From positions 35,636,821 to 35,700,820 of the forward strand of contig OX344750.2 of the NCBI GenBank assembly GCA_947034885.2: 64,000 nt of DNA, read 5' to 3'. The position numbers were made by a program, and so were the translations under genes. This DNA is from Thuidium tamariscinum. Lineage: Eukaryota; Streptophyta; Bryopsida; Hypnales; Thuidiaceae. The notes beneath the pieces are model-generated. The model was not told the DNA's origin, did no database searches, and worked only from the letters and a program-made list of their open reading frames with translations. Shown piece after piece: positions 22,800 to 63,260 of the stretch. Each line of letters starts with the position of its first letter. The first letter of the stretch is position 1.

Positions 22800-23662
22800 T
22801 TAACCCCTCATTGTTCATGGCCTTTTTTGAGTTTCTATGAATTTGCTCGTTCTAAATTGAACAAAAAACCAACATTTTGATCAACTCACTACAAGAATGG
22901 GGTCTTTTAAGTAGTGCCCAAGACATCAAGTCTTTTAAGTAATGTCTTTTAATGCGTCTTTTAAGTAAAATTTTACTGAAAAGACAGTCTCTTTGATAAA
23001 ATTTTACTTAAAAGATGCATTAAAAGACATTACTTAAAAGACATGATGTCTAGGACACTACTTAAAAGACCCCATTCCCTTGTAGTGACTTCATCAGTTT
23101 AAAAAAAATGTAACCGTAGAAATTCAAACTAGACATGTTAAAGATTACTTTTGAAAAAGAAAATACAACAATATCACTTATGGGTTAAAAGATTATAATG
23201 TTTGATTATGAGGGTGTTAAAGCTGCAAAAGGGGCTCAAAGTCTTTGGATCCTTTTTTCGCATGTCAAATCTAAGAAGTTGGTTACTAAAAAAGTATGAG
23301 GTTAAAGGGCCTAACATGGGTAATCGCATTCAATTTGTGGCTTCTCAAAATCTACTCTACAATTTTTTGAAATGAATTTCTAATGTGTTTTTTTCTCAAA
23401 AATCTAGTATGTTTGAGGCTCATTTCCAAAAGCCCTCAATACTATAGAAAGTCAAGATTGCAACCAATGCCATTGCATAAAATCTTGAATTGAAAAATCA
23501 TAATCAATCAATTTCAAGATTGGAATTTGATCCTTAAACTAGACTTCATAATGAAGTTTTCAAAAGTATAAAATACTAAAAAATTGCTACTTGCTTAGGT
23601 TTTATTTATTTTCAAAGTTTTGCAAACACCAAATTTTGGTGCCTTAGGCAATTAGAGATCAA
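22800..23662. mobile_element. TTAA-flanked repeat, family B, copy 2 (interrupted)
   Basis: The element begins TTAACCCCTCATTG at 22800 and ends GCAATTAGAGATCAA at 23662. Its interior matches the reverse complement of 51107-51768 over long blocks, for example ATTTGCTCGTTCTAAATTGA and GTAGAAATTCAAACTAGAC. A CACTA-type miniature element (22887-23087) interrupts it. Removing that insert restores collinearity with the other copy. Non-coding. Confidence 0.65.
22887..23087. mobile_element. CACTA-type (En/Spm-like) MITE, 201 bp, with 3-bp TSD
   Basis: It starts CACTACAAGAATGGGGTC and ends GACCCCATTCCCTTGTAGTG, the hallmark CACTA terminus. The flanks carry a 3-bp duplication, ACT at 22884-22886 and ACT at 23088-23090, as expected for CACTA elements. 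Almost the entire element is a hairpin. Each arm holds three or four copies of GTCTTTTAAGTA or a close variant, resembling the subterminal transposase-binding repeats of CACTA elements. Non-autonomous. Confidence 0.88.
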
Positions 23663-25275
23663 GGGACTAAAAATTAAGGGATTTATAATGGAAAACTGTA
23701 GATGTTTGAAGTGTGATCTACAACCTCTAGACACTTTCGTAGATATTGATGTACAATACAACTAAATATTCATATAGTGTAGAATGGAAATTAATTAATA
23801 TGAATCCCCTTTAAACCACCATTCAGTGTAGTAGACTGCAAGTTCCTAAACTGTGAGAATGTGCTAGGAATGCTACAATGTAGGCAATTTAACGACTACT
23901 AGGTTAGAAAATATTAATTACTTAATTTTTAACATTAATTACTTAATGTGTGAAATTGATTATTATGTATTTTTAAAAATTAGTTAAAAAATAATTATTT
24001 TTTATTTTTTATACTTTTGGATTTTTTTGGAATTTTTTGTTTTAGTTTCATTTTATTAATTCAAAAATTTATACATGTAGTTGTTGGTCAATGCACGAGA
24101 AACAATTTTGGAGAGCAACCCAAAAAACAATCTTTTAAAGGGCTGAAAAAACATTTAATGAAGGACTGTTGCAATTTACATATCATTGTATGCTATCCAT
24201 CATATAATCAAATAGGAATTTTGACCACTCTATTTTGCACTGAATTGGAGTTTCTTTAGAGTCATGTATGTGCATAAGGGAGCCTTGAAAATAATCTTTG
24301 GAATTTGCATTTCATTAGGGGAGTTTTTAAGCCTTCGGAATACTATTTCAAGGCAATCCAAAATGCTACAAACTAGCAATGGCTACTCTAAGTTTCCAAA
24401 TTAAATAAGAATTAAAAAAAAAAATTCCTGAAATTTTAGAAAGTATTAAATACCCTAATATGATTGAAATTATAAAATATAAAACAAAATTGATAATTAA
24501 TTTAATAAATTTATTACTATAATCTAACATAGTAGTGGCCTGACTACATTAGATTGATGACATGATAGAGTTTCAAGTGCTCCCATAATGTTTCCACATT
24601 TTAGAAACTCATAGTTTCTTAGAGGTTCCAAAATTCCCCTAATGTTTATATTGGTAGAGATTGGTGTATGTGCACCTCAATTACTACCTACAAATTTGTC
24701 ACCGGGATGTTGACTTAAACAAGTGAAATTAGGCTTGAATTTCTTTCTTTGGGCAACGTTCAAAACTTACAAAGATCAATTTCAAAGGCTTGTAAGTCAA
24801 AGTCATATGCTTGTATGCTTTTCAACATTGAAGATTATATTAATAAGCTAATTGAGGAATATGTATACAAAGTTTCAATTCACTTGGACCTATCTATTAT
24901 CATTAAGGGGGATTTGAGGGCTAAAAAAGATTGCGAGTTCCCACAGTTTGAAAACACAGAAACTACCCTGGAAACGTGGAATTGTAGGAATTCTATGTAG
25001 TTGAGCGACTTCTACATTAAATTTTTTTTTTTCTTTTTGGACTTTTTTCATATTTCAAGACCCCCAGAAAAAAAAATTTAGGTAATTGTTGGCTGATAGC
25101 AACCAATAGTTCCCTGAATAATTTCGAGAATAGATTCTGAAACAACCCTGTAGAGGCCTCCAATCCCCCCTAATGGGTTACTTCATATAGCATTTAACTA
25201 GAAAAAATGCTTCTTTTTAGTGCATATATAGCTTTTAATTGCAAGTTTATACATTGATTTGAAATTCTTTAGACA
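23663..25275. other. AT-rich intergenic DNA, decayed repeats
   Basis: No gene is seen. A part around 24525-24640 (TAACATAGTAGTGGCC ... TAGAAACTCATAGTTTC) resembles 39455-39545 (GATGTAGCAGTCTCTTGGCC ... GGGAACTCACAATCTTC), so it is another dispersed repeat. Homopolymer A/T runs are common. Confidence 0.45.
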
Positions 25276-26162
25276 TTAACCCTTTAAGGACCAGTCGACC
25301 ACTTTTGGGTTGATTTTTGTACTCTCGATCAAATATTGTTCAAAATACACTTGATCACAAAAATCTCAAAGACTAATGCAATTAGAGTGCCTTCATGCAC
25401 TTCAAACAAAACCAATTTTAAGAAAATTGGAGCCTTAATGCATTAGCTATGAGGTTGCAAACTCAAATGGCTTGGACCCTCAAAAGGAAAGTGTTCAACA
25501 AAAGTACAAAAAAATATCAACCAATTTGTGAGATTTTTTTGTATCTTGATGTCTTGACAAAGCATAAGTGTTGCTTTATAATATCATGAATGTCTAAAGT
25601 AAACACATGCATTGAAATTTATATAGCTCAAATTCTAAAGGATCATTCAAGTCCTTGATTTTTGAGGATTAAGGGAACAACTCAAATTCCAACAAGGCTC
25701 TAAAAGCAAACATGATTTAGAGGTACATTTTGATTTCTTCAATGTACCGAATCTGCACATTTTAGAAGGGTATTGCTTTTAATGACCACAAATGACAATT
25801 TTCTGTGAACTTCAAAAATTTGTAACTAATTTCAAAAAGCTTCAAAAAAATATAAAACAACTTGGGTTAGATGCCTATTCTACTTCCTTCTCAATAAAAA
25901 TCTATTGAAAATATTTAAAGATGTTCCACTTCCCAAAAATTCAATTCTAGCTCTTAAAAGGTCGATTTATGGACCTTCTACTTTATTTATAACAATTTGT
26001 ACCATTGGATGAGTTTGATTTTTTGTTAGGTTGAAGAATCTCCCTTATGGCAACACTTTATATAGTTTGATCTAAGATTGCATCTTTAGAGTAGCCACAA
26101 AATTCACTTTCTTGAATAACTATGCCCACCCCACAAATCAACTACAATCCTTAAAGGATTAA
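25276..26162. mobile_element. TTAA-flanked repeat, family A, copy 1 (887 bp)
   Basis: The left end is TTAACCCTTTAAGGACC and the right end ATCCTTAAAGGATTAA, so imperfect inverted ends begin directly at TTAA on both sides. The interior is collinear with 37448-38355 over its whole length (for example GCATTAGCTATGAGGTTGCA occurs in both). No ORF. The TTAA site and CCC start are typical of piggyBac-superfamily insertions; that assignment is an inference. Confidence 0.75.
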
Positions 26163-26635
26163 GCTAACATTGAAACACACTTGTGGTAAAGTTTCAGAAG
26201 AATTCAACAAATACTATACAAATAAAGGCTTGCCCCAAAATGAATAATAGCCAATTGAAATAATGCCTCATGATTTCTTGGCCTCTAGAAGATTGTGAGT
26301 TTTTGGCCTATGGGAACTTGTTATATTCTACAACATAAGCAATTTGGCATGACCAAGTGACTACCATATTAGTTTATGATACATAATTAATTTTAATATT
26401 ATTTTTGGAAAAAAATTATTTTTTTCAATTTTTGAAAATAATTTTGTTATTTTTAATATTTTTTAATCTCACCAATTGTGACTAGTTCACAATAAGGAGA
26501 CGACCCTGAAATAGTCTATAAATGCCTTCAAAACTCCTCTTATGATGTGTACATTCCAACACAATCATCATCTTGAAACTATGTTATGGCACACTTTGAT
26601 AGATGGTTGTTGTAAAGTGGGGATGCTATTTTCTG
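26163..26635. other. AT-rich spacer
   Basis: No gene, RNA or clear repeat boundary was recognised. It includes poly-A/T runs near 26400-26460. Confidence 0.4.
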
Positions 26636-27400
26636 AACCTGTGAGCTTGTGAGCCTAGAATTTTTGGTGAAATTTTTAGTGATTTTTAGGGCATGGACCT
26701 ATTACCATGCTTTAAGAATTTAGGATTTTTATATCTAGTATCCCCCTCATGAGATTTGAAATTTGTGATTTTCAAAACTTTAAAAAAAAAAAAAAATCAA
26801 TTTTTTTCGGGTTTTTTTTCAGTCATTTTTTTGTTTTTCAAATTCTTTTGCAACTCCATCACCCTCCAAAATCCCTCTTGATATTGAAAGGGGTTTAGAG
26901 GTAGAGGGCTTTGGAGCTCTCAAAACTTTTTTTTTCATTTTTTTTCAACTTTTTTTTCTTTTTTTCTGACTATGTTACTAGTTCATTTTTGTTGCGACTT
27001 TTCACCCTTCAAAACCTTTTCTTGGTACTGAGAGATCAATTTCAAGGTGATAAAGTCGGAAAAAAAAAAAAAAAACTTTTTTTTTTTTTTTTTTTTTTTT
27101 TCCGACTTTATCACCCTCGAAAATCCCTTGTTGGATTCTGGATTTTGAACCTCAAAAAAAAATTCAAAAATTCAAATTCTTTTTGGAAGGTATTGAGAGG
27201 CCCTTTAGAGATAGTAGGGTTTGAAATTTTAAAATACATTAACCACATTTCCACGGTCATAGGTCCATGGTCATGAAGCTGAAATTTTACTATAAATAGA
27301 TTTTTTTTAAATGACTTCACTTTTTTTTTCTCTTGGCTTAAAAAATTCACAGTTTTTTTTGGTTAATTCTCTAGGCTCACAAAACCTACGCTCACAGCTC
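26636..27400. repeat. Repeat with inverted ends and T-rich tandem core
   Basis: The left end (CTGTGAGCTTGTGAGCCTAG) is mirrored near 27373-27400 (CTAGGCTCACAAAACC ... GCTCACAG). Inside, a phrase like CACCCTCCAAAATCCC occurs three times (about 26861, 27002, 27111), each separated by T-rich runs of about 110-140 bp. The core contains a perfect palindrome at 27046-27115. Probably a decayed non-autonomous element with internal tandem units. Confidence 0.5.
27046..27115. repeat. Perfect palindrome around A/T homopolymer runs
   Basis: GGTGATAAAGTCGGA then an A run, a single C, a T run and the exact complement TCCGACTTTATCACC. The arms are perfect over 15 unique bases plus homopolymer. Assembly error or slippage is possible because such sequence is hard to read. 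Confidence 0.75.
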
Positions 27401-32700: not shown

Positions 32701-34410
32701 CTCAAATTGGTATCAGGGGCATGTACCGTGGGTCTATTCCAGCGATTGTAGGCCAATTCACCAGGTAAAGCCTCATATATCAATCTCCTCTTCTGTTATC
32801 TTTCTTTTGCTCTTGGAATCCATGTGGTCAAGCACCTCATCAGAAACGGAGTGTGGGAATCGTGGAAGGTGGGGTTTTGTATGATTTAAAATTCTGATAT
32901 ACCTCTGTTTTCTGGAATGTGCCAGCCATGGAATTCGGACAGGGGTCTTGGAAGCCAGCAAACTTCTTTTAAAAAACATGGCACCAAACGTTTCTGATCT
33001 TCAGGTACGCATGCAGCAGTTGTACGTGTATTTTCATTAACGACCCTCTGCTTGGATATTAACCCTAACGGCCAGTAGCAGCAACTTTCATAACGATAGG
33101 AGTTGAAGCAATAGGCTTCAAGGAAGGTAAATAATATCATGTACCAACAGAAAGTAGAATCGCATCCTACATTCTTTTTGAACACTAGAAATATTTTGGA
33201 AAGTTACTGTAGTCAACTATTAGCTTCCAAATTGAAAGTTATTTTTCAACTGGGGTGCTTAGGAGTTCGTTGTACAGATCCTGTCATCACATTCTGATAT
33301 AATCTATTTGTATATATATATGGCAACAGGTGCAATCTTTGTCTTCCTTTACGAGCACTGTAATTGGGACAGCTGTTCGAATTCCTTGTGAGGTATTGAA
33401 ACAGAGGTTGCAAGCTGGGTTGTACAACAGCGTGGGGGAAGCTATTGTAGCCACATATCAACGAGATGGCTTGAAAGGCTTCTTCAGAGGAACAGGCGTT
33501 ACCTTGTGTAGAGAGGTTCCATTCTATGTCGCTGGCATGAGCATCTATGAGGAAGCTAAGAAGGTAATAAAAGATCCATGTGCTCTCATTGCAAAAACCA
33601 TCAGATTTTGAAAGACTAGATAGAGCTTTTTATTACAAATCCATCTGAAGGTAGAGGATACTATTTACATCAATCAATGCATTTTAGCCAATATCAAAGA
33701 GTGTAATTTCATTGAGAGATCTTCAGTGCAGTAGAAAGATCTCTTTGGGTGTAAGAGCCAAGTGTTTCGACGTCAATTTTTCATCACTGTATGAATTTCG
33801 TATGCAATCATTCAAAGTTGGAGGTTGTAGATCACTGTTGAAAGGGTCGCGCATAGCGACAATCCCATTTCCATTTCCATTCAAAGATGCGTGTCCATAG
33901 ACAATTTAGCCCAGTCATACTTACTCCTAACTCGCTATTTGAAGGTCAACGGAGTGTTTGAAAGAGATGAGTTAGTGTAGATACTAAGGGTTAGTCAATA
34001 GGAGACAGGATTAGGTCGCTAAACAGTTCTAGTGTCTTCAATCTTAAATTCTGATGAGACTGGCTGTTTTTTTCCAGGTTGTCCAGAAGGTCTTGAACAG
34101 AGAACTGCAACCGTGGGAGACCATTGCAGTCGGTGGCCTCTCTGGTGGCCTTGCAGCTATTGCGACAACCCCTTTTGATGTGATGAAGACGAGAACGATG
34201 ACTGCAGCCCCCGGCATGCCATCCACCATGGGCACTATCATGGTTGCGATTGTGAAAGACGAAGGTCTACTGGCCCTTTTCAAAGGGGCAATTCCGCGTT
34301 TCTTTTGGATTGCGCCTCTTGGAGCAATGAACTTCGCAGGTTACGAGCTCGCTAAGCGAGCCATGGAGAACAAAGAAAAAGAAGTTCAAGCCTTAGAGAA
34401 GTCCAGATAA
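29800..34410 (+). CDS. SAMTL: EF-hand mitochondrial-carrier-family protein, SAM-transporter-like
   Basis: Inferred coding exons are 29800-31036, 31473-31890, 32037-32181, 32649-32764, 32926-33004, 33330-33563 and 34078-34410, with GT-AG junctions in one frame, about 853 aa. The first 400 residues are poorly conserved, with Gln and Ser runs. From about 400 the protein closely follows Arabidopsis At2g35800 (about 823 aa): PDKKKLTSVQDFFRYTEAEG, then one canonical EF-hand loop D421-D432 with D, D, D, G and terminal D. Three carrier repeats follow, each with the P-x-(D/E)-x-x-K signature: PLDTVK at 595-600, PCEVLK at 684-689 and PFDVMK at 775-780. The family moves metabolites across organelle inner membranes, and SAM carriers exchange S-adenosylmethionine for S-adenosylhomocysteine. 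The EF-hand suggests calcium sensing, but its substrate is not proven. The N-terminal ATG is the first in the open frame. Confidence 0.9.
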
Positions 34411-36126: not shown

Positions 36127-37018
36127 TTAAACCCTAAGGGCCAATTGCATCCTTGGGGACAAAATGGATTTCAGGCAGTTTTTATGACCCTAGTTTTCAG
36201 TGAAGTTTTTTGAAATTTTTCTTACAAGATACGAAAACTTATTAACTTCATGGGAAAATAACTTTAATTTCAACTAGTGACCAAGAGCAAAAGATATACC
36301 ACAAAAATTTGGTGGGTAGAAAAATAAAGCCACAAAAACTTGAAATGAGAGTTTTAAAGGGTTTCCTTCTCATAGATCATCCCCCCCTACATTTGAAGCT
36401 TTGATTCATTCGTTATGGATTAGCAATGTGAAAGTTATGAACAATCTTGGTTTCAGGGCAATTTGAGTAGCTTCTTGAAAAAATAACTCGTAGGATTCAT
36501 TTTGGAATGCCATTTTCACAATTTTTCAAAAAAAAAAATTTGAAAGGGTTTTTTTTTTCCTTAATTTTGAGATTAACGCAATTCAATTCCATCTTAGAAC
36601 TATTAACAATTTTGTTTTTTGTACACTCTTGGGCCTACTTCTACTACACAATTTAAAAAAAAATGAAAATCAAGTTGTTTTTAAAAAAAAATCCTAGACT
36701 TAAAAACTCAATTCATCAACAAAAAAAATTTAATTCAAAGTCCAAAAGGCAAAAAATCCAACAAATGGTGGTCAATCATTTGAAATTGTAGACCAAAGTT
36801 CAAAAAATTCTTTTATTTTTAGCTTTGAATGCTAATACCTTACAATCTATACGGTCAAACTTCATGAAATTTTTAACACATGATCTTAGACAAGTAAAGT
36901 GTAAAATCTTATAATTAGATTCAATAAGGGCATTTTTTGGTTCTCTTGGTGAACACGGTAGAAATGCTAATTTTGACTGTTTTTTCACCTTAAAATGGCC
37001 TTGGCCTTCAGGGATTAA
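36127..37018. mobile_element. TTAA-flanked repeat, family E (892 bp)
   Basis: It begins TTAAACCCTAAGGGCCAA and ends TTGGCCTTCAGGGATTAA; inverted ends share the pattern CCCT(A/G)A(A/G)GGCCAA right after TTAA. The interior is AT-rich, with no ORF. Phrases such as ATTCATTCGTTATGGATTAG and GTGAAAGTTATGAACAA are distantly like families F (52224, 55214). Confidence 0.65.
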
Positions 37019-37447: not shown

Positions 37448-38355
37448 TTAACCCTTTAAGGATCGATTGACCACTTTTTGGTTGATTTTTTCACTCTTGG
37501 TCTAATATTAGTCAAAATACATTTGATCACAAAAAACTTAGAGAGTAAAGCAATTAGAGTGTCTTCATGTGCTTCAAACAAAACCAATTTCAAGGGAATT
37601 GGAGCATTAATGCATTAGCTATGAGGTTGCAAACTCAAATGGCCTGAACCCTAAAATGGGAAGTGTTCAACAAAAATATAGAAAAATATCAACCAATTTG
37701 TGAGATTTTTTTGTATCTTGATGTCTCAATAAGGCATAAGTTTTGCTTTGTAATCTCATGAATGCCCAAAGTAAACTTATGCATTGAAATTTATGTAACG
37801 CAAATTCTAAAGGGTCATTCAAGCCCGCATTCAAGTCATTGATTTTTGAAGATTAAAAGAAACAACTCAAATTCCAGTAAGTCTCTAAAAGCAAACATGA
37901 TTTAGAGGTACATTTTTCTTTCTTCAATGTACCAAATCTACACATTTTAGAAGGGTATTGCTTTTGATGACCATAGATGACCATTTTTTGTGAACTTCAA
38001 AAATTTGTAACTAATTTCAAAAAGCTTCAAAAAATATAAAACAACTTGGATTAGATGTCTATTCTACTTGCCTCTCAAGAAAAATTTACTGAAAAATATT
38101 TAAAGATGTTTTACCTCTCCAAATTCAATTCTAGCCCTTAAAAGGTTGATTTATGGACCTTCTACTTTATTTATAGCAATTTGTACCGTTGGATGAGTTT
38201 GATTTTTTGTTAGGTTCAAGAATCTCCCTTATGGAAGCACTTTATACAGTTTGATCTAAGATTACATCCTTAGAGTGGCCACAAAATTCACTTTCTTGAA
38301 AAACTATAACCAGTTTACCCACCCTCCAAATCCAGCACGGTCCTTTAAGTGTTAA
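37448..38355. mobile_element. TTAA-flanked repeat, family A, copy 2 (908 bp)
   Basis: It begins TTAACCCTTTAAGGATC and ends GGTCCTTTAAGTGTTAA. It runs collinear with 25276-26162, with scattered substitutions and a few small insertions. TTAA is present at both outer edges. Non-coding. Confidence 0.75.
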
Positions 38356-47177: not shown

Positions 47178-49901
47178 TCATGTGTATTCATACAGAGAAA
47201 TACTTTTATCATCTGATACACTGGCCAATCTGCCAGACCTAAGCCCCTCGCCACCCGGACGAAACGCCACAGCCCACACCTGATCAGTGTGATCCGTCAT
47301 GGTTTGGATGGCGGCCCTCATCTTCAAATCCCAGAGTCGAACGGTTTTGTCGCTGGAGCCTGATGCCACAGCTGCCCCATCAGGACTCACATCTACACTG
47401 AGAACCCAGCTGGCATGCCCTGAAAACGCACTAACCAGTACCCTACTCCTCGCGTCATACATGTGAATATGCTTATCATCAGAAGCCGTGTACAGAACCT
47501 GGTTGTCCACCGGAGAAAACACCAATGACCGAACTGGCATGTTGTGACCCTCCAGAGTGTGAATAAGCTTCCCTCGGAGAACGTCAAAAATCGCAACGGT
47601 CCCGTCCATCGTGCTGCAGGCGAGAAGCTTCCCGTCCAGGCTCCACGCAACTCCGAGAACAAATTTACCCAAGCCTACCTTGTCTGAGGCTTTCCCGTCC
47701 TCAGACTTGGGGACTGCAAGCGACTGCTCCAATTTCCATGTTGCCGTGTTCCATAACTTCACTGAGCAGCTTCCTCCACCCGCAACGGCCAGGACTTCAC
47801 CCTACACAAATCTCAAATAGTTCCAGAAGCGCTTTAGCTTTCTGACACAGATGCTGCATATGCATGAAAATGTTACGAGAAAGATAAGATGGCAACGTGG
47901 GGAGACCGATATATGATGGCCCATACACAATCGTATTACTAGATGATAATCACCACAATACAAACGTGGAAGATTTAGGCGGGCATAGACCAATATTAGC
48001 AAAGTATATCTCACATACATTTTATCTGAATCTCTCCTCTGTATTGGTCATACAGTAGTAGTATAGATGCAGTGGGTTTGGTTCCCCACCTCAATACAGT
48101 ATTGCCCTCTGAAAACCCCGTCACCTTGAACAGTTAGGGAAACCAAACATACCTTGGGATCAAATTGCATTAGCCACGCTTCTGAAGGAGGAGTCTCCAA
48201 GGTTGTCACGGTGGCATTAGAGTCGACCTCCCAGACACGAACAAAACTGTCAAGAGATGTTGAGGCGGCAATAGTGCCTCCTGGATGAGCAGCTACTGCA
48301 ACCACACCAAGAGAATGCCCTGCCAACAACATTGATGAATCGTCAGGGTAAAAATTCAGAGTGACACTATATTTGCATAAACCAGGGCATTCAGAGTTCA
48401 CACAAACAACCAGACTAGAGTCCACGGAAGATCCTCTTTGATCATCAGATCAAGCTGCGATAACATAATTGGTAGATCGCTGATTGCTTGTAATTCACAG
48501 TGATAATTTTCTCAACAGTCATGACGATAGTTGACAATATCACTGTAACCGCATCGCCCTAAATCCAAAGCTACCCACAGCACTGTAAACTTGCTTACAC
48601 TTGAACCCGGTTTAGAACTTTGTCCGATTCTAGTAGGTAATTCAAAATCACGAGGCTTAACGCAAACTGATTGGCAAAAACAGTCACTTTTCTCTGACAC
48701 AAGCTTTGTTTTCTGGAGAAAGAGGAATCTTCCTCGCGACCTACACAAGAAATCCTACACCGTTGTTGGTGGAAGAACATATTTCAGTTCTTTTAACCTC
48801 GTCTTCCATTTACCTCGTTTTCTTCAACTAGCCCAAGTAACAAGAATGAGCATGAAGACGTGATGCTTACAAGGCCCCTATGAGGCATGATAAAAACAGT
48901 TGAGATAACAAGGTTTCGAGTTCCCACTTTGAGGTAAATTGGACCTTCGTCACCTCATCAGGTGTCATAAAGGCTATGTGTTATCTTAAGTTTGTCACCT
49001 TACCCCCGTAATTCACTTTCCACAAGCACCTTGCTGAGCCACAACCTGTCCGAACAAATTGAAACTCGCATGTAATTGAATAAAAGGAGCTGCATTGGGC
49101 GAGAGGCGGATTAGGGTTATCCCTAATCAACTCCACTCGTGCATGGCTATTTCGTTAAATCATGGAGGGAAAGTTACACAAATCGGAGTTCCCAAGCTGA
49201 AATTTGCTAATTCGTAATGCAGCTAGATTTGATTGAATAGGATGAGTTCAAGGGTTTATACAAGGGAACATCACAAGTCGCTTGAAGTGACAATCTCCTC
49301 GTGCAAATTGTAGCAACGCATGTATTTGAATAAAAGGAACTGCATTGGGCGGGAGACGGATTGAACTTATCCTCGTGCAAGACGACTCCGTCAAATCACG
49401 TAAAAGAAGAAGTTACACAAAATTGGAGTTCCCAAGCTGCAGTAATGCAGCTAGATTTGACCGTAAGGCAAGAATTTAGGGTTTTGAAATCTACTCATAA
49501 AAATTGCAGCTACGCATGTACTTGAATAAAAGACGCTACATTGGAGATTAGGGTTTCCCTCACAGTCATCTTCACTAGTGCAGGACGACTCCACCAAACC
49601 TTGAAGAGAAACTTTAATGATATCGGAGTTCTAGTGTACCAATTCTGCTATTCCTTTTGATTCAGTAACAGAGATAAAAGCTGGATTAGATCCTAAAGCT
49701 TAGAGGTTAAGGGTTAATCGTCTACTAACCTGTATTAGTCCTGTCGAGCTCCAGCTCATCTCCTTTCCACAGCTTCACGGTCTCATCCACGGATCCGGTG
49801 ATGAGCAGGCCCGGGCGTGAATCCGTCGCGGGCGACCAAGCCGCCGCCCAGATGCCATCGTTGTGCGCCCCTGCCAAGTTCTTCAAACTGTTGATCTTCA
49901 T
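47178..49901 (-). CDS. VIP3: WD-repeat protein VIP3/SKI8 (WDR61)
   Basis: On the minus strand the inferred exons are 49901-49730, 48319-48153 and 47801-47178, giving about 320 aa; Arabidopsis VIP3 has 321. The protein starts MKINSLKNLAGAHNDGIWAA and contains the block VDETVKLWKGDELELDRT. Later blocks include GHSLGVVAVAAHPGG, GHNMPVRSLVFSPVD, SGHASWVLSVDVSPDG and WDLKMRAAIQTM, near-identical to VIP3. Seven WD40 blades fill the length. VIP3/SKI8 is a subunit of both the PAF1 complex (transcription elongation, H3K4/H2B modification, FLC control in Arabidopsis) and the cytoplasmic Ski complex that feeds the exosome. Intron 1 is unusually long (1.4 kb) and carries an internal triplication. Both intron junctions fit GT-AG on the minus strand. 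Confidence 0.93.
49060..49680. repeat. Three degenerate tandem copies inside VIP3 intron 1
   Basis: The phrase GCATGTA(A/T/C)TTGAATAAAAG occurs at 49068, 49318 and 49514. Each is followed by GGATTA/GATTAGGGTT-like sequence, a GTGCA(A/G)GACGACTCC-like phrase, GAAGTTACACAAA(T/A)(C/T)GGAGTT and TAATGCAGCTAGATTTGA (first two copies). Unit spacing is about 250 and 196 bp. All copies lie within the intron. Confidence 0.75.
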
Positions 49902-50644: not shown

Positions 50645-51106
50645 TTAACCCGTGAAGATCTAGGGTAGTCGAGATTTCTAAGATTGTGAATAAAATGTAA
50701 CTTAGAAGAATATTAATGATAACTCTCAAGCAATTGTTGTGAAATGTGACTCATATATCATATCTACACAATTAGATCAATTAGTATACAAATCAATATT
50801 TTTCCAATAAAATTTGAAGTCAAAATCAGAAAATTCCTTCTAAAATTAATTGTAGATTGAATATTTGTAATCTCCACAAGAATTTTTTTTCTTGAAGTTC
50901 AAAATATTAAATTTTAATAATAGGTATTTTTGAAGATTTTTTTCTTAATCAAATCATTTTTAAGGGTTAAATGTCAAATTTAAAAGGGTTTTTTTCACAC
51001 TAGATCTATTGAATAATAGAATAATTACACAACAAAGCCTTTATATTAGACAAATGTTAAAGAACTAACACAAGATTTTTCCAATAAACACCTTATTTTT
51101 TAGTGG
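50645..51106. repeat. Family G repeat copy adjoining family B
   Basis: It starts TTAACCCGTGAAGATC (TTAA 50645-50648) and continues in homology with 53200-53800 (AAAATGTAACTTAGAAG, ATTGTAGATTGAATATTTGT). It ends at the TTAA (51107-51110) where the family B element begins. Confidence 0.5.
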
Positions 51107-51768
51107 TTAACCCCTAAATGCCCAAAGCACTAGAATTTGGTGTTTGCAAGACTTTGAAGTTAAATAAAACCTAACCAACTTGCTATTTTTAGTAGTTTGT
51201 ATTTTTGAAAAGTTCTTTTAGAAGCCTAGTTTTAGTGTCAACAATCTAACCTCGAAAATGAATGATGGTGATTTTTCTATTCAAGATTTTGTGCAAGGGT
51301 ACCTATGGCAAACTTGACTTCCCATAGTGTTGAGAGCTCTTGAAAATGAGCCTCAAATACACTAGATCTTGGAGAAAAAATCACATTCAAAATTCATTTA
51401 CAAATATTGTAGAGTAGATTTTGAGAAGCCATAAATTGATTGGAGTTATGAGTTATGCATGTTAGGCCTTATAACCTCATATTTTTTTGGTCACCAACTT
51501 TTCAGATTTGACTTGCAAAAAGAGGATAGAAAGACTTTACATCACTTTTGCAGTTTTTAATACCCTTATGGTCAAACATTACAATCTTTCACTCTATAAG
51601 CAAAATTGTTGTATTTTTTTTCCTACGCAATTTCTAACATGTTGAGTTTGAATTTATACGGTTATAATTGAAAAAAAATTGATACAACTTATCTAAATAT
51701 TGGCATTTTGTTCAACTTAGAGCAAATTCTAAGAAGTTCAAAATAAGCCTTAGGCATTTAGGGGTCAA
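51107..51768. mobile_element. TTAA-flanked repeat, family B, copy 1 (662 bp)
   Basis: Left end TTAACCCCTAAATGCCCAA; right end TTAGGCATTTAGGGGTCAA, giving good inverted termini of about 15 bp. The interior is homologous in inverse orientation to 22800-23662 and, in its right part, to 54440-54838. The right TTAA has mutated to TCAA. No ORF. Confidence 0.75.
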
Positions 51769-52223: not shown

Positions 52224-53203
52224 TTAACCCCTAAATCCCTAAACTCCTACATCTCTAAACTGAGTTTTTTGGTAACATAGTGATTTTGGGCAATTTATTA
52301 CAAATGGGGTTTTTATTTTTTTCATTGAAATTTTCAAATAACATTTTCTTCAAGAGTAGCTTTAAGGTGCAACAATTTTCATAACTATTGATTACATGGT
52401 TAAAAAGTTATAGCATGATATATCATTTTCTTTTCTTAGTAGGCAACCCAAGAAGTAAGAAAAACATCTTTAAAATTTATTTTCTTAAGAAATAAAAATT
52501 TGAAATTTTTTATTAAATTAATATCAAAATGGAAAGCTTTGAATCATTCTATTTTTATCAATGAGTCAAAAGTTATAAAGGGTTTTAGTTTGGAGTAGTT
52601 TGCAGGTAGATATTGAATCTCTACACTACAAAAAAAAAGTTTGAAGTTCTTTGTTTAATTCTATTTTTATGTTTTTGAAAAAAATTTAAAAAGTGGATGA
52701 AGATTTTTTATTACAATATTACAACCATTAAGATTAGCGTTTTTCATTTCCATAAATAAATTGTTCACAATTTAGTATTTTGAAGCATTTGCTACTTCTT
52801 TCTACTTACTATTTTTCCCTATATGTTGTACAATTCCAAATGATTAAATTTTTTTTGAAAATATAGCCAAATTACATTGAAGGATGGACTCAAAGAGTAA
52901 CCACCATTTTGAAAAAAAATTCATCCAAATGTGATGTTGTGTGAAATGTAGCTGCTTGGGTTTTGGCAAGGATAAAAAAAATGATTTTTGTTAATTCAAA
53001 TGTAAGTATATTGCAATCTACACAATAGAAATTTTTGAGAAAAAAATTCTACATCTTTTCAAACTACCTTTCTTGAAGATCCTACGGTTACAAGTATCAA
53101 AAAATGATTTTTTTCTAAAAGTTTTGCACTTATATTAGAAATTGGAGTTTGGGAGCATTTTAGGTGAAAACATAGTCAAAAACCTTTAGAAAATAGGGAT
53201 TAA
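52224..53203. mobile_element. TTAA-flanked repeat, family F, copy 1 (980 bp)
   Basis: The left end is TTAACCCCTAAATCCCTAAA and the right end AAAATAGGGATTAA (TTAA 53200-53203). It is collinear with 55214 to about 56100 (shared AATTTTCATAACT, ACATGGTTAAAAAG, GCTTTGAATCATTC). Non-coding. A family G copy starts at the same right-hand TTAA. Confidence 0.65.
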
Positions 53204-53992: not shown

Positions 53993-54007
53993 TACTCCCT
54001 CCATTCC
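53993..54007 (+). mobile_element. Possible Stowaway-type MITE end (TA-CTCCCTCC)
   Basis: TA followed by CTCCCTCCATTCC matches the widely known Stowaway/mariner-type plant terminus CTCCCTCCGT(T/C)CC after a TA target. The other end was not found; TAATGGAATGGAGTGG near 53887 is a weak inverted candidate. The element may be truncated. Confidence 0.4.
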
Positions 54008-54439: not shown

Positions 54440-54838
54440 TTGACATTTAGAATTGAGATCATGAAAAAATGATGAGGTTAAAGGACATAACATGCACAAG
54501 TATATTGATTGAAGGCTTTTAATAATCTATTTTCCAATTTTTTAAATGAAATTTCAATGTCATTTGTCTCCAAGATCTAAAATATTTGAGGCTCATCTCT
54601 AAGAGCCTCCAACACTAAAGAAATCAAGATTTGCAATTGAAAACCTTGTACAGAATTTTGAATAGAAAAATTATAAGCAATGTTTTTTTAGATGAAATTC
54701 TTTTGGTCTTTTAAAAAGACTTTCAAAGGTACTCACCCGTAAAGAATAATACCCAAACTAGCACTTTGTTTAAATTTTATTTAATTTCAAAGTTTGGTCG
54801 GCACTAAAATAAAGTGCCTTAGGCATTTAGGGATTGAA
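54440..54838. mobile_element. Family B repeat, copy 3, right part only
   Basis: Collinear with 23260-23662 (GAGGTTAAAGG, GATCTAAAATATTTGAGGC, AGTGCCTTAGGCATTTAGGG). The right end is GGCATTTAGGGATTGA, in place of TTAA. The left half is missing or has diverged beyond recognition. Confidence 0.6.
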
Positions 54839-55213: not shown

Positions 55214-56100
55214 TTAATCCCTAAATGCCCAAACTATGTTTTTTAGCAAAATATTGATTTTGGTTAACTCACTACAAATGGAGCTTTTGTTTTATTTCTT
55301 AAAATTTTCACACAACATGTGCCAAAGAAGTACCTTTAAGTCCCAATAATTTTCATAACTTTTGACTACATGGTTAAAAAGTTTTTGTAAGATATGTCAT
55401 TTTCATTGTTTGGAAGGTAACTTGGGTAGCTCAAAAAAATTCTTTAAAAATCATTTAAAAAATAAATAAAAACTTAAAATTGGTTTTTAGATTTATATAT
55501 ACATAGATAGCTTTGAATCATTCCATTTTGATCAATGAAATGAAAGTTATGAGTATTTTTAGTTTTCAAGTAGTCATATATTTTCTACTCTAAAATAAAC
55601 TTTGAAATAATTTATTTAATTCAATTTTCAATAATTTTGAAAAAACAAACAAACTATGCATGTAGATTGTTTATTACAACATTACAATTGTTGGGATTGG
55701 CATATTTCAATTGCGTAAATAATTTATTAACATATTAGTATTTTCAACTTCTTTCTAATTATTATATATATAACAACTCCAAGCGATTTGAAAATTTTCA
55801 AGCATGCAACTTACTTGCTTTGGAAAATGAATCCATAGAATTACCATCATTTTGGATATTTTTTTACACCAATGTAAGATTCTGAGGTGTAGTTACATGA
55901 TTTTTTGTAGGGCCAAAAAAATATGTCATTGAAAATGCTAATATCTAGCAATCTATATAGTGAAAAATTTGAAATTTTTTCTACGTCTTTTCAAACCATT
56001 TTACTGTAAGATCCTACAATTATATATGTCTTAGTTTTTCTTTTTCTAGAATTTGAACCTTGTACTAGTAATGGCATTTTGAAACATTTTCTCAATTAAA
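55214..56100. mobile_element. TTAA-flanked repeat, family F, copy 2
   Basis: It starts TTAATCCCTAAATGCCCAAA and follows family F copy 1 for about 850 bp. No right terminus is preserved, so the end is approximate. Non-coding. Confidence 0.55.
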
Positions 56101-56265
56101 TATAGATCTCTGCAAACAAATACACTTGGTCTTTTACTACTATATTGATAATTATGATTAACATTCGTTGACAAGTAATTAATTAAAGCTTGAAAATGTA
56201 AATCAATGGATGCCAATCAGTAATAAAGATTTATTGGCTATGTCTTTTGGACATAAATTGTAGCA

Positions 56266-57441
56266 AGGTGATTGCAAGAAACACTTGTTCTATTTGATGC
56301 ATTTTGCAATAATGCTTGTGGTTTTTTCTAAATTTTTGGAGTACTATAAAATAGGATTTTTCTTAAAGTTTAAAAATATGACCCATATATGCACCTTTAA
56401 GATGAAGGTAACTACCAAAGGAATTTTTTAAGAAAATCCCTAGGTAGGAGAATTAGAAAAGTGCCAAATCTGAAGAAAATAGATATTTCAATATTTTAAT
56501 CAATAATGTATATAAATTAAATAAATTAAATAAAAATTAGACATTTGCAACAACTTTATGTAGATGGTCATTCACCATTAGATAACACTAAAATCATTTT
56601 TTGCATGTTTCAAAATGCAAGCAAAAAGAGGCCCATTTTGTAAACTTCTATTCAATATTTAATTAGTTATTTTTGAAAATCCTTTATATACTAGCTACAA
56701 GTATACTACAAGACCATCTCTGCCAAATTTCCAGCCCTAAATTTTTTTATGGGTACTATTTTGTTAAAAAAAAACAAAAACATTGGAGGATTTTGAGCTT
56801 TAAAGAGTGCCTCTAAGAAGGGTAGTTAGAAGGGTGCTTTCATATTTAAATGTTGTCCTTCAAGAAGACTATTCCCCTCTCCCCGCTCATTGGAAAAGAA
56901 AGTAATTATATTGATACACTTTTGCGGGACAATAGCTCCCATTGGATGGATCAAGGAGACCATGACGAAGCTTTGTCATTTAAAATTTGGGTTCATGACA
57001 TGAAGACGACACAAGTACTATCCAACCATCAATGTTATATTGTACAACCATCAAGATAATAATATGGTACTATACATTCACACTAGTAATGGATTCTATC
57101 ATCTATTGTAGTCCTCACTTGAAGACAACAAGAAGCTAGTAGGTATTTGTGCTTCTAGATTTGCTCCTCATTAAATAGGAGTGCATGTCAATCTTTGGGG
57201 CCCTTCTATGCACCTCAAAAATCCTCTAATGATGGCAAGAGACTTAATGTTAGGGGCTACTATAAAATAGTAAAATATTTTTTGTAAATTCCAAAAAATT
57301 AGACAAGATGTACAATAGTCATAAGTACCTTAGATTTAAATCTTATGTCATTTAAAGCCAAAATGTAAAATTTATGGCCAAAAAAATGATCAATACTCAC
57401 CATGTGACAAAAAATAGTACTAATGTTTCTTGCAATGACTC
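56266..57441. mobile_element. TIR element of the GGGTGATTGCAAGAAACACTT family, copy 2
   Basis: The left end AGGTGATTGCAAGAAACACT matches copies at 20033 and 62100. The right end TAATGTTTCTTGCAATGACT is a decayed complement. The interior shares AAAGCCAAAATGTAAAATTTATGG-like sequence with the right part of copy 1 (20690-20720). No real ORF; frames inside are short. Confidence 0.6.
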
Positions 57442-57513
57442 ATTGTTGACTTTTGCATTCTCAATTTGAGCTTTCAAATCCTATCTACAACTACATTTAC
57501 ACTACACAACATG

Positions 57514-57974
57514 TCAAGGTTGGGTTGAAGTGGATGGAGCCTCGTCCAATACATGCACGTATTTACTAAGCTTGGCTACGCTAGCATCCTTTCCTGCACC
57601 GCAAACATCCTTCGTGTGTGCACGTTCAACATCATAGAAACAAGTCGCAATAAGCTCGTTGTTGGACGAGTCCATGTATACTGAAGCTGGAGCCTGCCCA
57701 TGCAGCTCGGAGGCCATCATAACATGCCTCATCCTGACTCGACCTCAATCTTACAGATACCAGGAGATCACTCTGCAGGGCCTGCTATGCGAATTCCGTT
57801 CATAGAGTAGCAGTTACAGAAATTACAGTTTTTAATCAGTCCATCGCCGGCTGTTACATTCGATTTGACAAGATTCAATTGAGGTACAGCTGATCGGGTC
57901 GACCCGTTGCATTGGCACTGATTGTGCGCAACACTCCGCGTAATCAATGCTGTTGTAGTGCTTAGGATTTTCAC
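57514..57974 (-). other. Two small minus-strand ORFs upstream of the glycosyltransferase
   Basis: Balanced-composition DNA here carries two minus-strand frames. One runs 57974-57768 (68 aa) and holds five Cys in QCQC and CNFCNC motifs. The other runs 57732-57514 (72 aa), with a run MASELHGQAPASVYMDSSNN. They are in different frames and I see no convincing intron joining them. They could be a small cysteine-containing protein gene, an exon fragment, or chance frames in the GT promoter, since the first starts only 21 bp from the GT start codon. Neither is recognised. Confidence 0.25.
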
Positions 57975-57995
57975 CTGAGGGAAGCAGATTGCACA

Positions 57996-59534
57996 ATGAC
58001 ATCAACGGAGAAATCGGGCAAACGGACACTGAAGCTTACCCACGTGCTGTTGATACTTTTCTTCATCTTCTTCGTGGTAATCGAAATTTGGGTGCAGCAG
58101 CAGCAGCTCGGGATCAAATTGAAGGCGTGCTCAAGCAGTGCATTCGCAGGAATAGCGAAGGAAGAATCGACTGCAGATGCAACCCGAATCCCCGTTCTTG
58201 CCAATTCGCCAACGGTGCACGAATTCTTCACCCGTGACAATGTGGTGCACTGGGACAACCTAACCGAGCTGGCTCCGGAAGGGCTGCGAACGTCCATCGA
58301 CACAAGCGACAGCGACGAAGCTCGCTTCATGCGGTACGGGCTATCCCCACTACGGAACGTCTGTATTCGCCCGAACGGAACGATCGTGGTGGTTGGGGTG
58401 TCCAAGGAGGAGTTTTCAAGCAGCCTACCTGAAGCCATGGCGCTTGAGTGGAAAGAGACTTACAATTGCTCTTGGGGTTGCAATGGCGCTGCATTTGAGA
58501 ACTCGACTCCTACAGGCGCACTCTGGATCAACGGCACCACGACGCACATCATTCCATACCTGGGAAACGTCTTCCACCATTTTGCAGAGCGCGTGTGGCC
58601 GCACCTAACAAGCGGGAACGTCCCATCCCAGTATTACGTGCACCACATGCACACATGGTTGGATCAAGCGCACCACAGCATCGACCGCAACACGCTCATG
58701 TTCCAACTCGCCTTACTCGCCGGCAACACGACGTTCCTCCAGCACACAGAAGACGAGATACGACCCCTATGCTTCGCGTCTCTCACTCTCTGCTCCGCCA
58801 CGGCTGGCAAAATGAGTCCCAAATTAGGGTTAAAGATTTTCTCCCCCGCCATTTCCCGATACCGCGAATCCGCATTCACTTCCTTCGCAATCCCAGCTCC
58901 TTCGCTCCCCCTCCCCCCCTCCCGTCTCCGCGTCACCCTCTACGGCCGCTCCGACGCCTCTCGCAGGCGCATCTCCAACATCGCCCAAGTCGCGACTTTC
59001 CTACGCAACTCCACCCACCCACCTCTCCTTGTGACTTCCGTCGACGACATGATGCAGAACGGACTCTACAACCAGACGCTTCCCGAAGTCGTGTCCCTCA
59101 TGGCCCAGACGGATGTTTTCATCACACCGCACGGGGCGAATACGTGGGCCACCCTTTTCATGCCGAAGCGAGCGGCGGTGATCGAGGTTTACGGACCTTG
59201 TGGTCCCTCAACGTGGATTGGGGAGACGGTCGTGAAGGCGTTAGCGCTCAAGCATGAGACGGAGGGCAATCCGTGGGGGCTGAGAATTCAGAGTGCGAGA
59301 GCGGGGAATACGACCGAGTGCCGAAATTCTCTGGAAACGCCGGACTTCACTATCGATTTGGAGAAGCTGGGGATGGTGATGAAGAGGCTGGGGAAGGGGG
59401 AGGGGACTGGAGATCGGGTGGCTTTGCATTGGAAGTTCGATTGGAGGAGGAACTCGCCCCAGCAGTCAATTCGAAGTCGCCAGGTCCACGGAGAATGCGC
59501 AAGATCCACCGAGGATTCCCAAGACTTCTGGTAG
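57996..59534 (+). CDS. GT61-type (DUF563) glycosyltransferase, intronless, type II membrane protein
   Basis: A single open frame of 512 aa. The N-terminus has a short basic cytosolic part (KRTLK) and one membrane anchor at about 14-33 (THVLLILFFIFFVVIEIWV), the type II layout of Golgi/ER glycosyltransferases. A long lumenal domain with many N-x-S/T sites follows. The C-terminal half carries SLMAQTDVFITPHGANTWA (His379-Gly-Ala-Asn) and then AAVIEVYGP, matching the HGAxxxN...VIE(V/I) signature of family GT61, which includes plant beta-1,2-xylosyltransferase, xylan arabinosyl/xylosyl transferases and animal EOGT. The donor sugar and acceptor cannot be deduced. The gene is markedly GC-richer than its surroundings. 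The first ATG is used; it directly precedes the anchor. Confidence 0.85.
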   Translation: MTSTEKSGKRTLKLTHVLLILFFIFFVVIEIWVQQQQLGIKLKACSSSAFAGIAKEESTADATRIPVLANSPTVHEFFTRDNVVHWDNLTELAPEGLRTSIDTSDSDEARFMRYGLSPLRNVCIRPNGTIVVVGVSKEEFSSSLPEAMALEWKETYNCSWGCNGAAFENSTPTGALWINGTTTHIIPYLGNVFHHFAERVWPHLTSGNVPSQYYVHHMHTWLDQAHHSIDRNTLMFQLALLAGNTTFLQHTEDEIRPLCFASLTLCSATAGKMSPKLGLKIFSPAISRYRESAFTSFAIPAPSLPLPPSRLRVTLYGRSDASRRRISNIAQVATFLRNSTHPPLLVTSVDDMMQNGLYNQTLPEVVSLMAQTDVFITPHGANTWATLFMPKRAAVIEVYGPCGPSTWIGETVVKALALKHETEGNPWGLRIQSARAGNTTECRNSLETPDFTIDLEKLGMVMKRLGKGEGTGDRVALHWKFDWRRNSPQQSIRSRQVHGECARSTEDSQDFW

Positions 59535-59596
59535 AATCAGAATCCCCCTTGGCGTCTGAATCGTTTCTTGAATTTCTGCATATTTTGGCTTACATA

Positions 59597-60565
59597 TTAA
59601 CCCCTCACCGCCCAAGGTCCAACCATGCTTAAAAACTGCCTGCCTTTGCAAGTCTGAAAATTCAAAATTAGAGTAAATTATGAAGATCTCAACCGTACAA
59701 TCTTGTAGTGTGCATCTTTTAGATGGTGTGGAACAAATTTTGGGTCATTTGACCGTATAGATTGAAAGATTATAATGTTTTAGTGTTCAAAAAAGGTGCT
59801 GAAATTTTCTTAAAAACACATTTGGAGGTGAAATTGGATTTCTAAACCAACTCCAATGAAAAAACATTAAACTACAAAGTGATTCAAAACCATAATATAA
59901 ACACTTCGGTGGAAAAAAAATTCAGAAAAATCACTCATTTCGTTTGAAAAATGGATTTGAAATGTCAAAAACCAGTGAAAAAAGATGAAAAAATCACAAC
60001 TGTGGCTGAAGCTCCTTCTACCAAAATGCTTCTTAGTCACTCAAAACGTCTTAGATGGATCTGAAATTTTAGCCACACAAAATAGATTAGCAAGTGAAAC
60101 TTTTCCAACAAATATTATTGAAAAGCAATCATGTATGAAGAAGTTACGAGCCGCCAAAGTTGACTGAAATGCAAAAATGTCTAGATTTTGAACTTCGAAT
60201 TGCTCCCAAACATTCAAAACAACTTGGATTGGCATGAAAATTTTAGCACAATAACTAGACCTTGAGAGGAACAAAACACAACAAATTTTATCAAAAAAAA
60301 AGATTTTATGAAAAAGATACAATCCCCCAAAGTTGCAGCCGTCACAATGCAGTGTGCTGCATCTAAATGAACCTGTGAACTTTGAATGGCTCTCAAAGAC
60401 TCAATATGTCTTTTATTGATTTGAAATTTCTTCCATAAGAATTAGATTAAAATGCGCAACTTTTCCAACAAGTTTCAATGAATTTGGACATTGGATGCAA
60501 AAGTTACAGCACTTTGAGTCTGACTGCATGGACACTTTTGGTCCTCTTGGGCGGTGAGGGGTTAA
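59597..60565. mobile_element. TTAA-flanked repeat, family C, copy 1 (969 bp)
   Basis: The left end TTAACCCCTCACCGCCCAAG and right end CTTGGGCGGTGAGGGGTTAA form perfect 20-bp inverted termini including TTAA. This is the best-preserved element of the set. The interior is collinear with 61189-63260 apart from an insert there. It contains three degenerate tandem units of about 175-187 bp (near 60037, 60211, 60398). No ORF of significance. Confidence 0.85.
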
Positions 60566-60836
60566 GGTAGGTACACCCAAAAGCGCCACTTATTCATACT
60601 GAGCCTAGTTCCTGCTATTAATTAGTTCAAATTTTTATGTAGTCTTGTTGGCAAGTGAAAGCATGTTCCAACACACCAAAGAATGCAGGATTTGGATACC
60701 GTATGCAAAAGTTCTTAACAGTCAAAGTCTGTTTCTAAAAGCACCATCTATAGTATGTGAACATGACTGATTTCGAAAATGTATGTGCACTATAGATGGC
60801 GCTTTTAGGAACAGGGTGCTTTTGGGTGTACCTACC
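60566..60836. mobile_element. TTAA-flanked repeat, family D (271 bp)
   Basis: GGTAGGTACACCCAAAAGC at the left and its exact complement at the right give perfect 19-bp TIRs. TTAA flanks both sides (60562-60565 and 60837-60840). A second internal inverted pair lies at 60728-60753 and 60790-60815. A decayed relative lies at 35379-35590. Its left TTAA is the right-hand TTAA of family C copy 1. Confidence 0.85.
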
Positions 60837-60849
60837 TTAATACACATGT

Positions 60850-60938
60850 ATTATTACCTCCCTTTGGACATGGTGTATCCATTTCATAGAGCAATAGTAC
60901 TGAGAATGGATACACTATTTCCAAATGGAGGTAATAAC
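60850..60938. mobile_element. Small palindromic MITE, about 89 bp
   Basis: ATTACCTCCCTTTGGACATG ... is mirrored by ... CCAAATGGAGGTAAT, with GTGTATCCATT and AATGGATACAC inside. TA at each side of CCTCC...GGAGG suggests a TA target, as in mariner/Stowaway MITEs. Confidence 0.65.
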
Positions 60939-61188
60939 TTATTTATTTTAAATTTCATCAAATTTAACATACTCAAAGTGTGGTTTTTGTGGAAGTCAAG
61001 CATTGGTTTTGATGAATGAGAAGCTTTGCGGTCAAAAATGCCCTTCAAGCCTCTTTGGTCATTGTCCAAAATTGGAATGTGAGAGTGCAAAGGAATAATT
61101 GTCTCTATGTCTTATAAGTGAGGATCGACCCTAATAAGTGCCCAATAAGTAGTGGCTTTCAATAAGTTTCTAGGGAAGGTAAGGTTTG
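60939..61188. other. Intergenic spacer
   Basis: About 250 bp, no recognisable gene or repeat end. Confidence 0.4.
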
Positions 61189-63260
61189 TTAACCCCTCAC
61201 CGCCCAAGATCTAACTATGTCAGAAAACAACCTTGGTTTTCAAGTGTTATAAGTCTAAATGTAAGTAAGGTATGAAAATCTAAACCATACAATCTTGTAG
61301 TGTGCATGTTGTAGATGGTGTAAATCAAATTTGAAATCATTTGACCGTATAGATTGAAATATTATAATATTTGAGTGTTGAAAAAAGATGTTGAAAATTT
61401 TACTAAGAACACATTTGGAGGTTAATTCGATTTCTAAATCTACTCAAATGAAAAAACCCTAAACTCTGAAGTGATTCAAAATCGAAACACTGTGCGGAAA
61501 AAAAATTCATTCAAAAGATTCATTGCGTTTGCAAAAGTGTTTTGAAATGTCAAAAAATAGTAAAAAGAGTAGTAAAAAAACACATCATTGTATGGCTGAA
61601 CCTACCTCTACTAAAATGCTTCTCAATCAATCATAACTTCCTGGATTGATATAAAAATTTCACCACAAGAATAAGACTAGTATGCACAACTTTTTCAACA
61701 AAAATTATTGAAAACAAACCCTGTCTAAAGAAGTTATAAACTGACAAAGTTTACTGTAATGCAAAAATGTTTGGATTTTGAACTTTGAATTGCTCCCAAG
61801 CATTCAAAACAACTTAGATTAATATGAAAATTTTACCACAATAAGTAGACTTTATGGGGAACAAAATCCAACAAATTTTATTGAAAAATAACATTTGATG
61901 AAAAAGATACAAGCCCCCAAAGTTGCAGCCATCTCAATGCAATGTGGTGAACTCAAATTGAACTTGCGAACTTTGAATGGCTTTCAAAAACTCAATACAT
62001 CTTGGATATATCTAAAAATTTTACCACAAAAACTAAATTAGAATGCAAAACTTTTCCATCAAGTTTTATTCAATTTGGACATTGGATGCAAAAGCTATAG
62101 GGTGATTGCAAGAAACACTAAGCCTTTTGTCACCCTAGTTTTTTATTTCTTTTTTGGCTATAACTTTTGTGTTTTAGCTCCAAGTGACTCAAAATTTACA
62201 AAGAAGATACTCATAGATATTATGTATTTATAATGAATTTTTGAGATTTTTTAAAAATTATTTATTATTTTAAATAGCCCCAAAAATTTCTCATAGTACT
62301 TGATTTAGGGGGTTTTAGCACCATTTATCTCCAAAAAAACGAATTTTGACCTAAAATTTTGAGAGGATGGTTTCATAGTAGACTTATAGCTACTATACAA
62401 AGGAATTCTAAAAATACTTATTTATATGTGTTGTAGAAGTCCACAAAGAAAGCTTCATTCTGCATTTTTTTCCAAAGGTATAAAACATTATTTTGATGAG
62501 TTTTTTGGTCAAATCTCATCACCAAAAAGTTTTTTTTAAATGTTATATTTTTAATTATTTCTTTTCCAAATTAAATGTCACAAGTTGTATATTCTTCACC
62601 GGAATTTTATGAGAATTCTATATCTAAAATTCCAGTGAAGAAAATACAATTTGTGACATTTAATTTGTAAGAAAAAGTATTATTATTTTTTAAATAAATA
62701 AAAATATAACACTTGAAAAAACTTTTTGGTGATGAGATTTGACCAAAAAACTCACCAAAATAATGTTTTATACCTTTGGAAAAAAATGCAGAATGAAGCT
62801 CTCTTTGTGGAATTCTACAATATATATAAATAAGTATTTTTAGAATTCCTTTGTACAATAGCTATAAGTCTACTATGAAACCATCCTCTCAAAATTTTAG
62901 GTCAAAATTCGTTTTTTTGGAGATAAATGGTCCCGTAAACGATGCTAAAAAAACCCTAAATCAAGTATTATGAGAAATTTTTGGGGCTATTTAAAAATAA
63001 TAAATCATTTTTAAGAAATCTCCAAAATTCATTCTAGACACGTAATAGCTATGAGTATCTTCCTTGTAAATTTTGAGTCATTTGGAGCTAAAACACAAAA
63101 TTTAAAATAATAATAAAAATCAAAAACTAAGGTGTGATGAAATGCAACAAATAGTACAAGTGTTTCTTGCAATCACCCTACAACACTTTAAAGCTGATCA
63201 CTAGACAGCTACTAGACTATATGAGGACACTTTTGGTCCCCTTGGGTAGTGAGGGTTTAA
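61189..63260. mobile_element. TTAA-flanked repeat, family C, copy 2, with nested insert
   Basis: It begins TTAACCCCTCACCGCCCAAG (TTAA 61189-61192) and ends CTTGGGTAGTGAGGGTTTAA (TTAA 63257-63260). Without the nested 1,079-bp element at 62100-63178 it is about 990 bp and collinear with copy 1. Non-coding. Confidence 0.82.
62100..63178. mobile_element. Long-hairpin TIR element (1,079 bp) inserted in family C copy 2
   Basis: It starts GGGTGATTGCAAGAAACACT and ends AGTGTTTCTTGCAATCACCC, flanked by TA (62098-62099 and 63179-63180). The whole element folds on itself: the segment 62330-62610 is repeated in inverse at 62625-62960 with high identity (AAAAAAACGAATTTTGACCT, TAGAATTCCTTTGTA and others). 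The loop is short. Same family as 20033-20738 and 56266-57441. No transposase reading frame. Confidence 0.85.

Follow-up and report, generated by a model that had tools for sequence, protein, structure and literature searches.

Families A, B, C, E and F, dispersed repeats in a 64,000-nucleotide stretch of a moss genome (hereafter the window; G000:C2:35636821-35700820), are in our judgement non-autonomous miniature inverted-repeat transposable elements (MITEs) of the piggyBac superfamily, a reading to which we give a probability of about 0.95. A sequence-only reading of the window had proposed this superfamily, and the proposal is supported by the TTAA ends of the families, by empty target sites of family C, and by elements elsewhere in the genome (363.2 Mb in 19 contigs) that have PF13843 transposases between the same kind of termini. 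The copies in the window, together with those of families D and G, are as follows.

25276..26162, + strand: MITE family A, copy 1, with ends TTAACCCTTTAAGGACC and TTAATCCTTTAAGGATT.
37448..38355, + strand: MITE family A, copy 2, 86% identical to copy 1.
51107..51768, + strand: MITE family B, with ends TTAACCCCTAAATGCCC and TTGACCCCTAAATGCC; the right TTAA is mutated to TCAA in this copy.
22800..23662, - strand: older copy of MITE family B, 79% identical to 51077-51664, with a nested 201-bp CACTA-like hairpin.
54464..54838, - strand: decayed partial copy of MITE family B, with matches at 70%; TTAA not intact.
59597..60565, + strand: MITE family C, copy 1, 969 bp, with perfect 20-bp terminal repeats TTAACCCCTCACCGCCCAAG.
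61189..63260, + strand: MITE family C, copy 2, diverged, 79% identical to copy 1, with a nested 1.08-kb foldback at 62100-63178.
36127..37018, + strand: MITE family E; its edges and TTAA are known from other copies.
52224..53203, + strand: MITE family F, copy 1, decayed.
55214..56017, + strand: MITE family F, copy 2, aligned to copy 1 at 68%; left end TTAATCCCTAAATGCCC, right end approximate.
50645..51047, + strand: member of family G, a candidate only, with ragged edges and an approximate right end.
60565..60837, + strand: family D, a TA-flanked MITE with ends AGGTAGGTACACCC, not of piggyBac type.

That the families end at TTAA is seen in genome-wide searches whose probes included 100 bp of flanking sequence, so that the point at which similarity stops is independent of the TTAA motif. 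Scoring covered 39 other copies per family, taken from the best 40 among 4,170-8,096 loose first-look candidates after exclusion of the window copy and secondary fragments, and an edge was placed at TTAA if it lay within 2 bp of it on the left or 4 bp on the right. Both edges fell at TTAA in 35/39 copies of C, 27/39 of B, 26/39 of A and 21/39 of E; the count of 0/39 for F reflects the decayed ends of the F copy in the window. Identity of the scored copies was 98-100% for C, 88-92% for A, 87-89% for B, 77-82% for F and 72-77% for E.

Copies were also fetched and read letter by letter, those of C being the ten best-scoring and those of B and E being picked among copies with an exact left edge. 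TTAA stood on both sides in 10/10 copies of each of C, B and E. For F it was present at each end in 8/10 copies and at both ends in 6/10. In A, 7/7 other copies have it on the left, as do 4/4 readable ends on the right, one further right end being split by an F insertion and two not having been reached. In the ten C copies TTAACCCCTCACCGCCCAAG is found at both ends, apart from a single substitution at one of them, and the C termini are perfect over 16 bp inside the TTAA; B and E have TTAA and then CCY-like bases at both ends in 10/10 copies each, and A begins CCCT. These observations confirm A, B, C and E, and largely F, as dispersed non-coding repeats with ends at TTAA and CCC-like bases. The sequence-only reading had placed D and G in the same set and had asked for ends to be compared across many copies; genome-wide, A, B, C and E, and largely F, prove to end at TTAA, while D turned out to have TA flanks and G ragged edges. 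Its caution that TTTAGTGG lies outside the TTAA at 51107 is settled as well, since the TTAA itself is the exact starting point of 30/39 other B copies and TTTAGTGG is thus no part of the B end.

Empty sites were sought in the genome by joining the flanks through one TTAA for eight of the ten C sites that had been fetched and for three full-length elements, with 42 matches listed. Among these matches, 3/8 C insertions have single-TTAA empty sites, as the sequence-only reading had suggested should be looked for. For the C site at L067/L068, at least 12 places match through the junction, nine of them at 100% over all 144 bp; at L057/L058 at least nine places do so at 92-93%, and at L061/L062 at least 20 at 89-95%. 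The C site at L055/L056 gave one short partial match only among the matches listed. This genome-wide search is better evidence than one restricted to the fetched loci, in which the one spanning match (81% over 242 bases, L029 flanks) lay within the same locus. One of the L067/L068 matches is inverted and some 7 kb distant on the same contig, which indicates that a larger element with inverted arms has C in one arm and not in the other. Inverted pairs of the 144-bp sequence occur about 6.8 kb apart at G000:C5:9099375/9106201, C3:26015052/26021878 and C3:8843775/8850601, and further pairs at C1:49043845/49050670 and C2:7532794/7539627; these five places are nearly identical to each other and represent the larger long-inverted-arm element, of which one copy, on C9, hosts C. 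A nested case is seen at L003, the sole one for A, B, E and F, where F is nested in an A copy at one of its internal TTAA sites and that TTAA is duplicated.

The sequence-only reading had also advised a search for a DDD transposase gene flanked by the same termini, and DDD transposase genes between termini of the same kind were found in this genome. A search with the PF13843 profile yielded 116 scored matches, each of them above the curated cut-off (of 658 first-look candidates), and 0 matches in 14 control genomes. The 20 transposase-bearing elements that were read are 4.0-5.7 kb long and have ends of the form TTAACCC...GGGTTAA. Ten loci have a 5,096-bp element in common, with alignment edges at TTAA or at most four bases beyond it and TTAA at both ends in 10/10; these copies, all at different places, differ from each other by 0-3 bases, and 21/45 pairs are identical. 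In ten further loci the ends were sought with the motif TTAA[CT]CC, and in 10/10 a TTAACCC...GGGTTAA pair, chosen by motif, encloses the transposase at a distance of 4,047-5,693 bp; inner termini are also present in L043.

The protein of the 5,096-bp element matches PF13843 and no other profile, and in the Protein Data Bank (PDB) it matches piggyBat (E 9.7e-28) and Trichoplusia ni piggyBac (E 9e-23) and no others. We aligned seven open frames from different elements, leaving out stop-broken frames and near-duplicates. The three aspartates (DDD) are kept in 7/7, in motifs of the type DE, DNFF and GVDxxDQ, and the catalytic regions form two groups that are 33-37% identical to each other. A cysteine-rich C-terminal domain is a feature of the piggyBac superfamily, and a cysteine-rich tail is present in 6/7 frames, the L045 frame stopping short of it. 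An AlphaFold model of one transposase has a mean pLDDT of 45.8, so that the Foldseek ranking obtained with it, in which piggyBat (E 2.7e-21) and piggyBac (E 7.9e-20) come first, ahead of Tn5, is weak support. A second open frame lies upstream of the transposase frame in the L029 element (nt 638-1492) and overlaps it, with similar starts in L043 and L044; it may be a spliced first exon of the transposase.

The transposase that would mobilise each family can be proposed from shared termini, and the proposal is well supported only for C. C has 16 terminal bases in common with L046 and L047 at one end and 18 at the other. When the first 20 bases are compared, the other families reach at best 15-16 (B), 13-17 (A), 11-15 (F) and 13-14 (E); as seven of the matched bases are often the common TTAACCC, no partner was assigned for A, E and F, and that of B is tentative. 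Nearness to PF13843 did not serve as a means of finding the C partner: one of the first 100 listed C termini lies within 8 kb of the 116 places, at a spacing unsuited to the element sizes.

Could TTAA-CCC ends arise by chance or from base composition? The window alone has 16 occurrences of TTAACCC/GGGTTAA where dinucleotide composition predicts about 8.7, a modest, roughly twofold excess that would leave room for this explanation. The genome-wide counts refute it, and we give it practically no weight: the degenerate terminal motif TTAACCCYTWAANGMC occurs 6,252 + 6,138 times (12,390) against 4 + 4 (8) for the reversed pattern, the exact C terminus 136 + 134 times (270) against 0 + 0 in the control, and among the first 100 listed C termini 23/35 close neighbouring ones span exactly 969 bp.

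It is also very unlikely that the families are MITEs of another superfamily with a TTAA or TTA/TAA target, such as Sola3 or PIF/Harbinger with its 3-bp duplication, whose CCC start would be a matter of convergence. Sola3 elements do target TTAA, and no search aimed at Sola or Harbinger transposases was made. Against such an origin, the 3-bp TTA/TAA duplication of PIF/Harbinger (Tourist) was not found, the full TTAA, and not just TTA or TAA, being duplicated on both sides in all fetched copies of C, B and E, and the same genome holds the PF13843 elements with TTAACCC ends that share 16-18 terminal bases with C. Several observations do weigh against a piggyBac assignment. Among the 20 elements read, none has the same terminal 16-20 bases as A, E or F, and the MITE interiors share just short weak matches with 11 transposase elements, the best besides the C termini being 26 bp at 92% (A2 in L041, E 7e-4). 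F and G are decayed. Five of the eight C sites and the three full-length insertions have no clear empty site among the matches listed; since repeats dominate these matches, the lack of a match there is no evidence either way. Finally, the superfamily has terminal inverted repeats of 12-19 bp with CC[C/T]T according to the available part of PMC2872659, and B, C and F begin CCCC instead of strict CC[C/T]T, though coral CMITE III in the same source does likewise.

How the piggyBac-type MITEs of the moss would move can be outlined as follows. Animal piggyBac elements transpose by cut-and-paste chemistry, and the moss elements would presumably do the same. The 4.0-5.7-kb elements elsewhere in the genome encode DDD (PF13843) transposases; the transposase would bind the terminal repeats, with their TTAACCC ends as recognition sites, cut the element out and place it in a new TTAA, so that a TTAA stands on each side. 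The MITEs, which lack a transposase gene and have kept the ends, would then be moved by the transposase of the larger elements.

We consider it somewhat better than an even chance that several distinct, currently transposing autonomous piggyBac lineages in this moss, with catalytic regions as little as 33-37% identical between the two groups, each mobilise their own MITE families, which would make this a naturally active system in a land plant. A possible, though to us rather doubtful, alternative is that the MITEs are of piggyBac type and fossil, having moved long ago with nothing moving now. The E and F copies, merely 72-82% identical, and the stops in several transposase frames would agree with such an extinct population. 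The C copies, at 98-100% identity, and the ten 5,096-bp elements at different places with at most three differences argue against it, and these near-identical copies speak for very recent movement of some lineages, though not for movement at the present day.

Family D is dropped from the piggyBac set. TA was found at 9/10 ends of five other copies and TTAA at 2/10; the TA flanks rule out a piggyBac MITE. D had seemed to be TTAA-flanked because it abuts C. It also occurs in L029, L035, L044 and L046. At L063, as in the window, a C insertion adjoins a D end, perhaps since a D end next to an A creates TTAA. Family G is an old family and is left as a candidate. Its 39 other matches have 71-82% identity and ragged edges, 3/39 starting no more than 2 bp from the presumed left edge and 6/39 stopping no more than 4 bp from the presumed right one at 50967, while 12/39 extend past 50967, up to 51047.

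Other features of the window include the 201-bp hairpin at 22887-23087 inside the older B copy, which has ends CACTACAAG and the 3-bp repeat ACT on either side (22884-22886, 23088-23090) and looks like a CACTA-type MITE. The 1.08-kb foldback at 62100-63178 within C copy 2 has ends GGGTGATTGCAAGAAACACT and an ambiguous flank repeat, and related ends are found at 20027-20065 and 56254-56304. Pieces of host genes at 47181-47801 (- strand), 34048-34407 (+), 57966-59531 (+) and 10945-11904 (+) comprise WD40 repeats, a mitochondrial carrier, a glycosyltransferase 61 and Myb-like domains. An Rfam scan of the window gave nothing over the gathering scores.

The plant host assumed in the sequence-only reading was borne out by the LEAFY protein, which points to a moss. 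For the LEAFY gene at C4:11159876, the nearest PDB entry to the DNA-binding domain is 4bhk (242 bits; next 177), which we take to be from the moss Physcomitrium, and the protein has Asp and Cys at two positions where mosses presumably differ from other land plants. GC content is 37.9% in the window, and the eleven contigs met in the analysis span 17.5-54.2 Mb. In the hypnalean moss Straminergon, the available text of PMC11992514 gives 47.5, 46.5 and 45.4 Mb for the three largest chromosomes and a GC content of 37.5%; it has eleven large chromosomes of which three are much the largest, as in the genome studied here.

The moss elements resemble piggyBac from Trichoplusia ni (6x67) and piggyBat (9c0f) in a catalytic region that is homologous and aligns at the three aspartates, in the TTAA target and in CCC-type ends. 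They differ in being 4.0-5.7 kb long, which is longer than we take the animal elements to be, and in about 450 extra residues before the matching region of the open frame, a part modelled at very low confidence; aligned identity is low, at 21-22% (Foldseek with the low-confidence model). A closer parallel in organisation comes from the piggyBac MITEs (CMITEs) and AmiPB elements of coral, described in the accessible portions of PMC2872659. These share with the moss the TTAA duplication, CCC ends such as CCCTTTAAGCCC and CCCCTCAGTG, one family with an autonomous partner of identical termini, and an empty allele. The coral MITEs are about 100 bp long in an animal host, in contrast to about 660-980 bp for those in the plant.

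Plant repeat surveys, as far as their available text goes, record the superfamily name for land plants, ferns and angiosperm MITEs: PiggyBac is among the superfamilies present in all taxonomic groups studied in a 2015 survey (PMC4438587), a repeat table has 1,230 PiggyBac matches for ferns (PMC6890710), and PiggyBac stands among angiosperm MITE superfamilies in PMC10004981; the corresponding text of a study of 207 plant genomes (PMC12550479) does not use a PiggyBac class, and a word count of that study found neither 'piggybac' nor 'TTAA'. These are list or table entries, whereas ends, empty sites, transposases and near-identical copies are brought together here. In the parts of the open-licence literature that were available, we found no description of a moss piggyBac population; two matches in a Niphotrichum paper were both the word "piggybacking". 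The sequence-only reading had stated that few piggyBac populations are documented in land plants, and this holds for described populations and not for the superfamily as such, which PMC4438587 already lists. Since PiggyBac was listed for land plants earlier, the present case adds a dense and young population to a known superfamily, notable for its host, its number and its youth.

A group of transposons best known from animals has thus been active recently in a land plant. Should the same hold in other mosses, a numerous class of plant MITEs may sit under other names in repeat annotations or be omitted from them. With near-identical full-length copies whose ends are exact at TTAA, the targeting of TTAA, the silencing of young DNA transposons and the mobilisation of MITEs would become testable in a plant with a haploid body.

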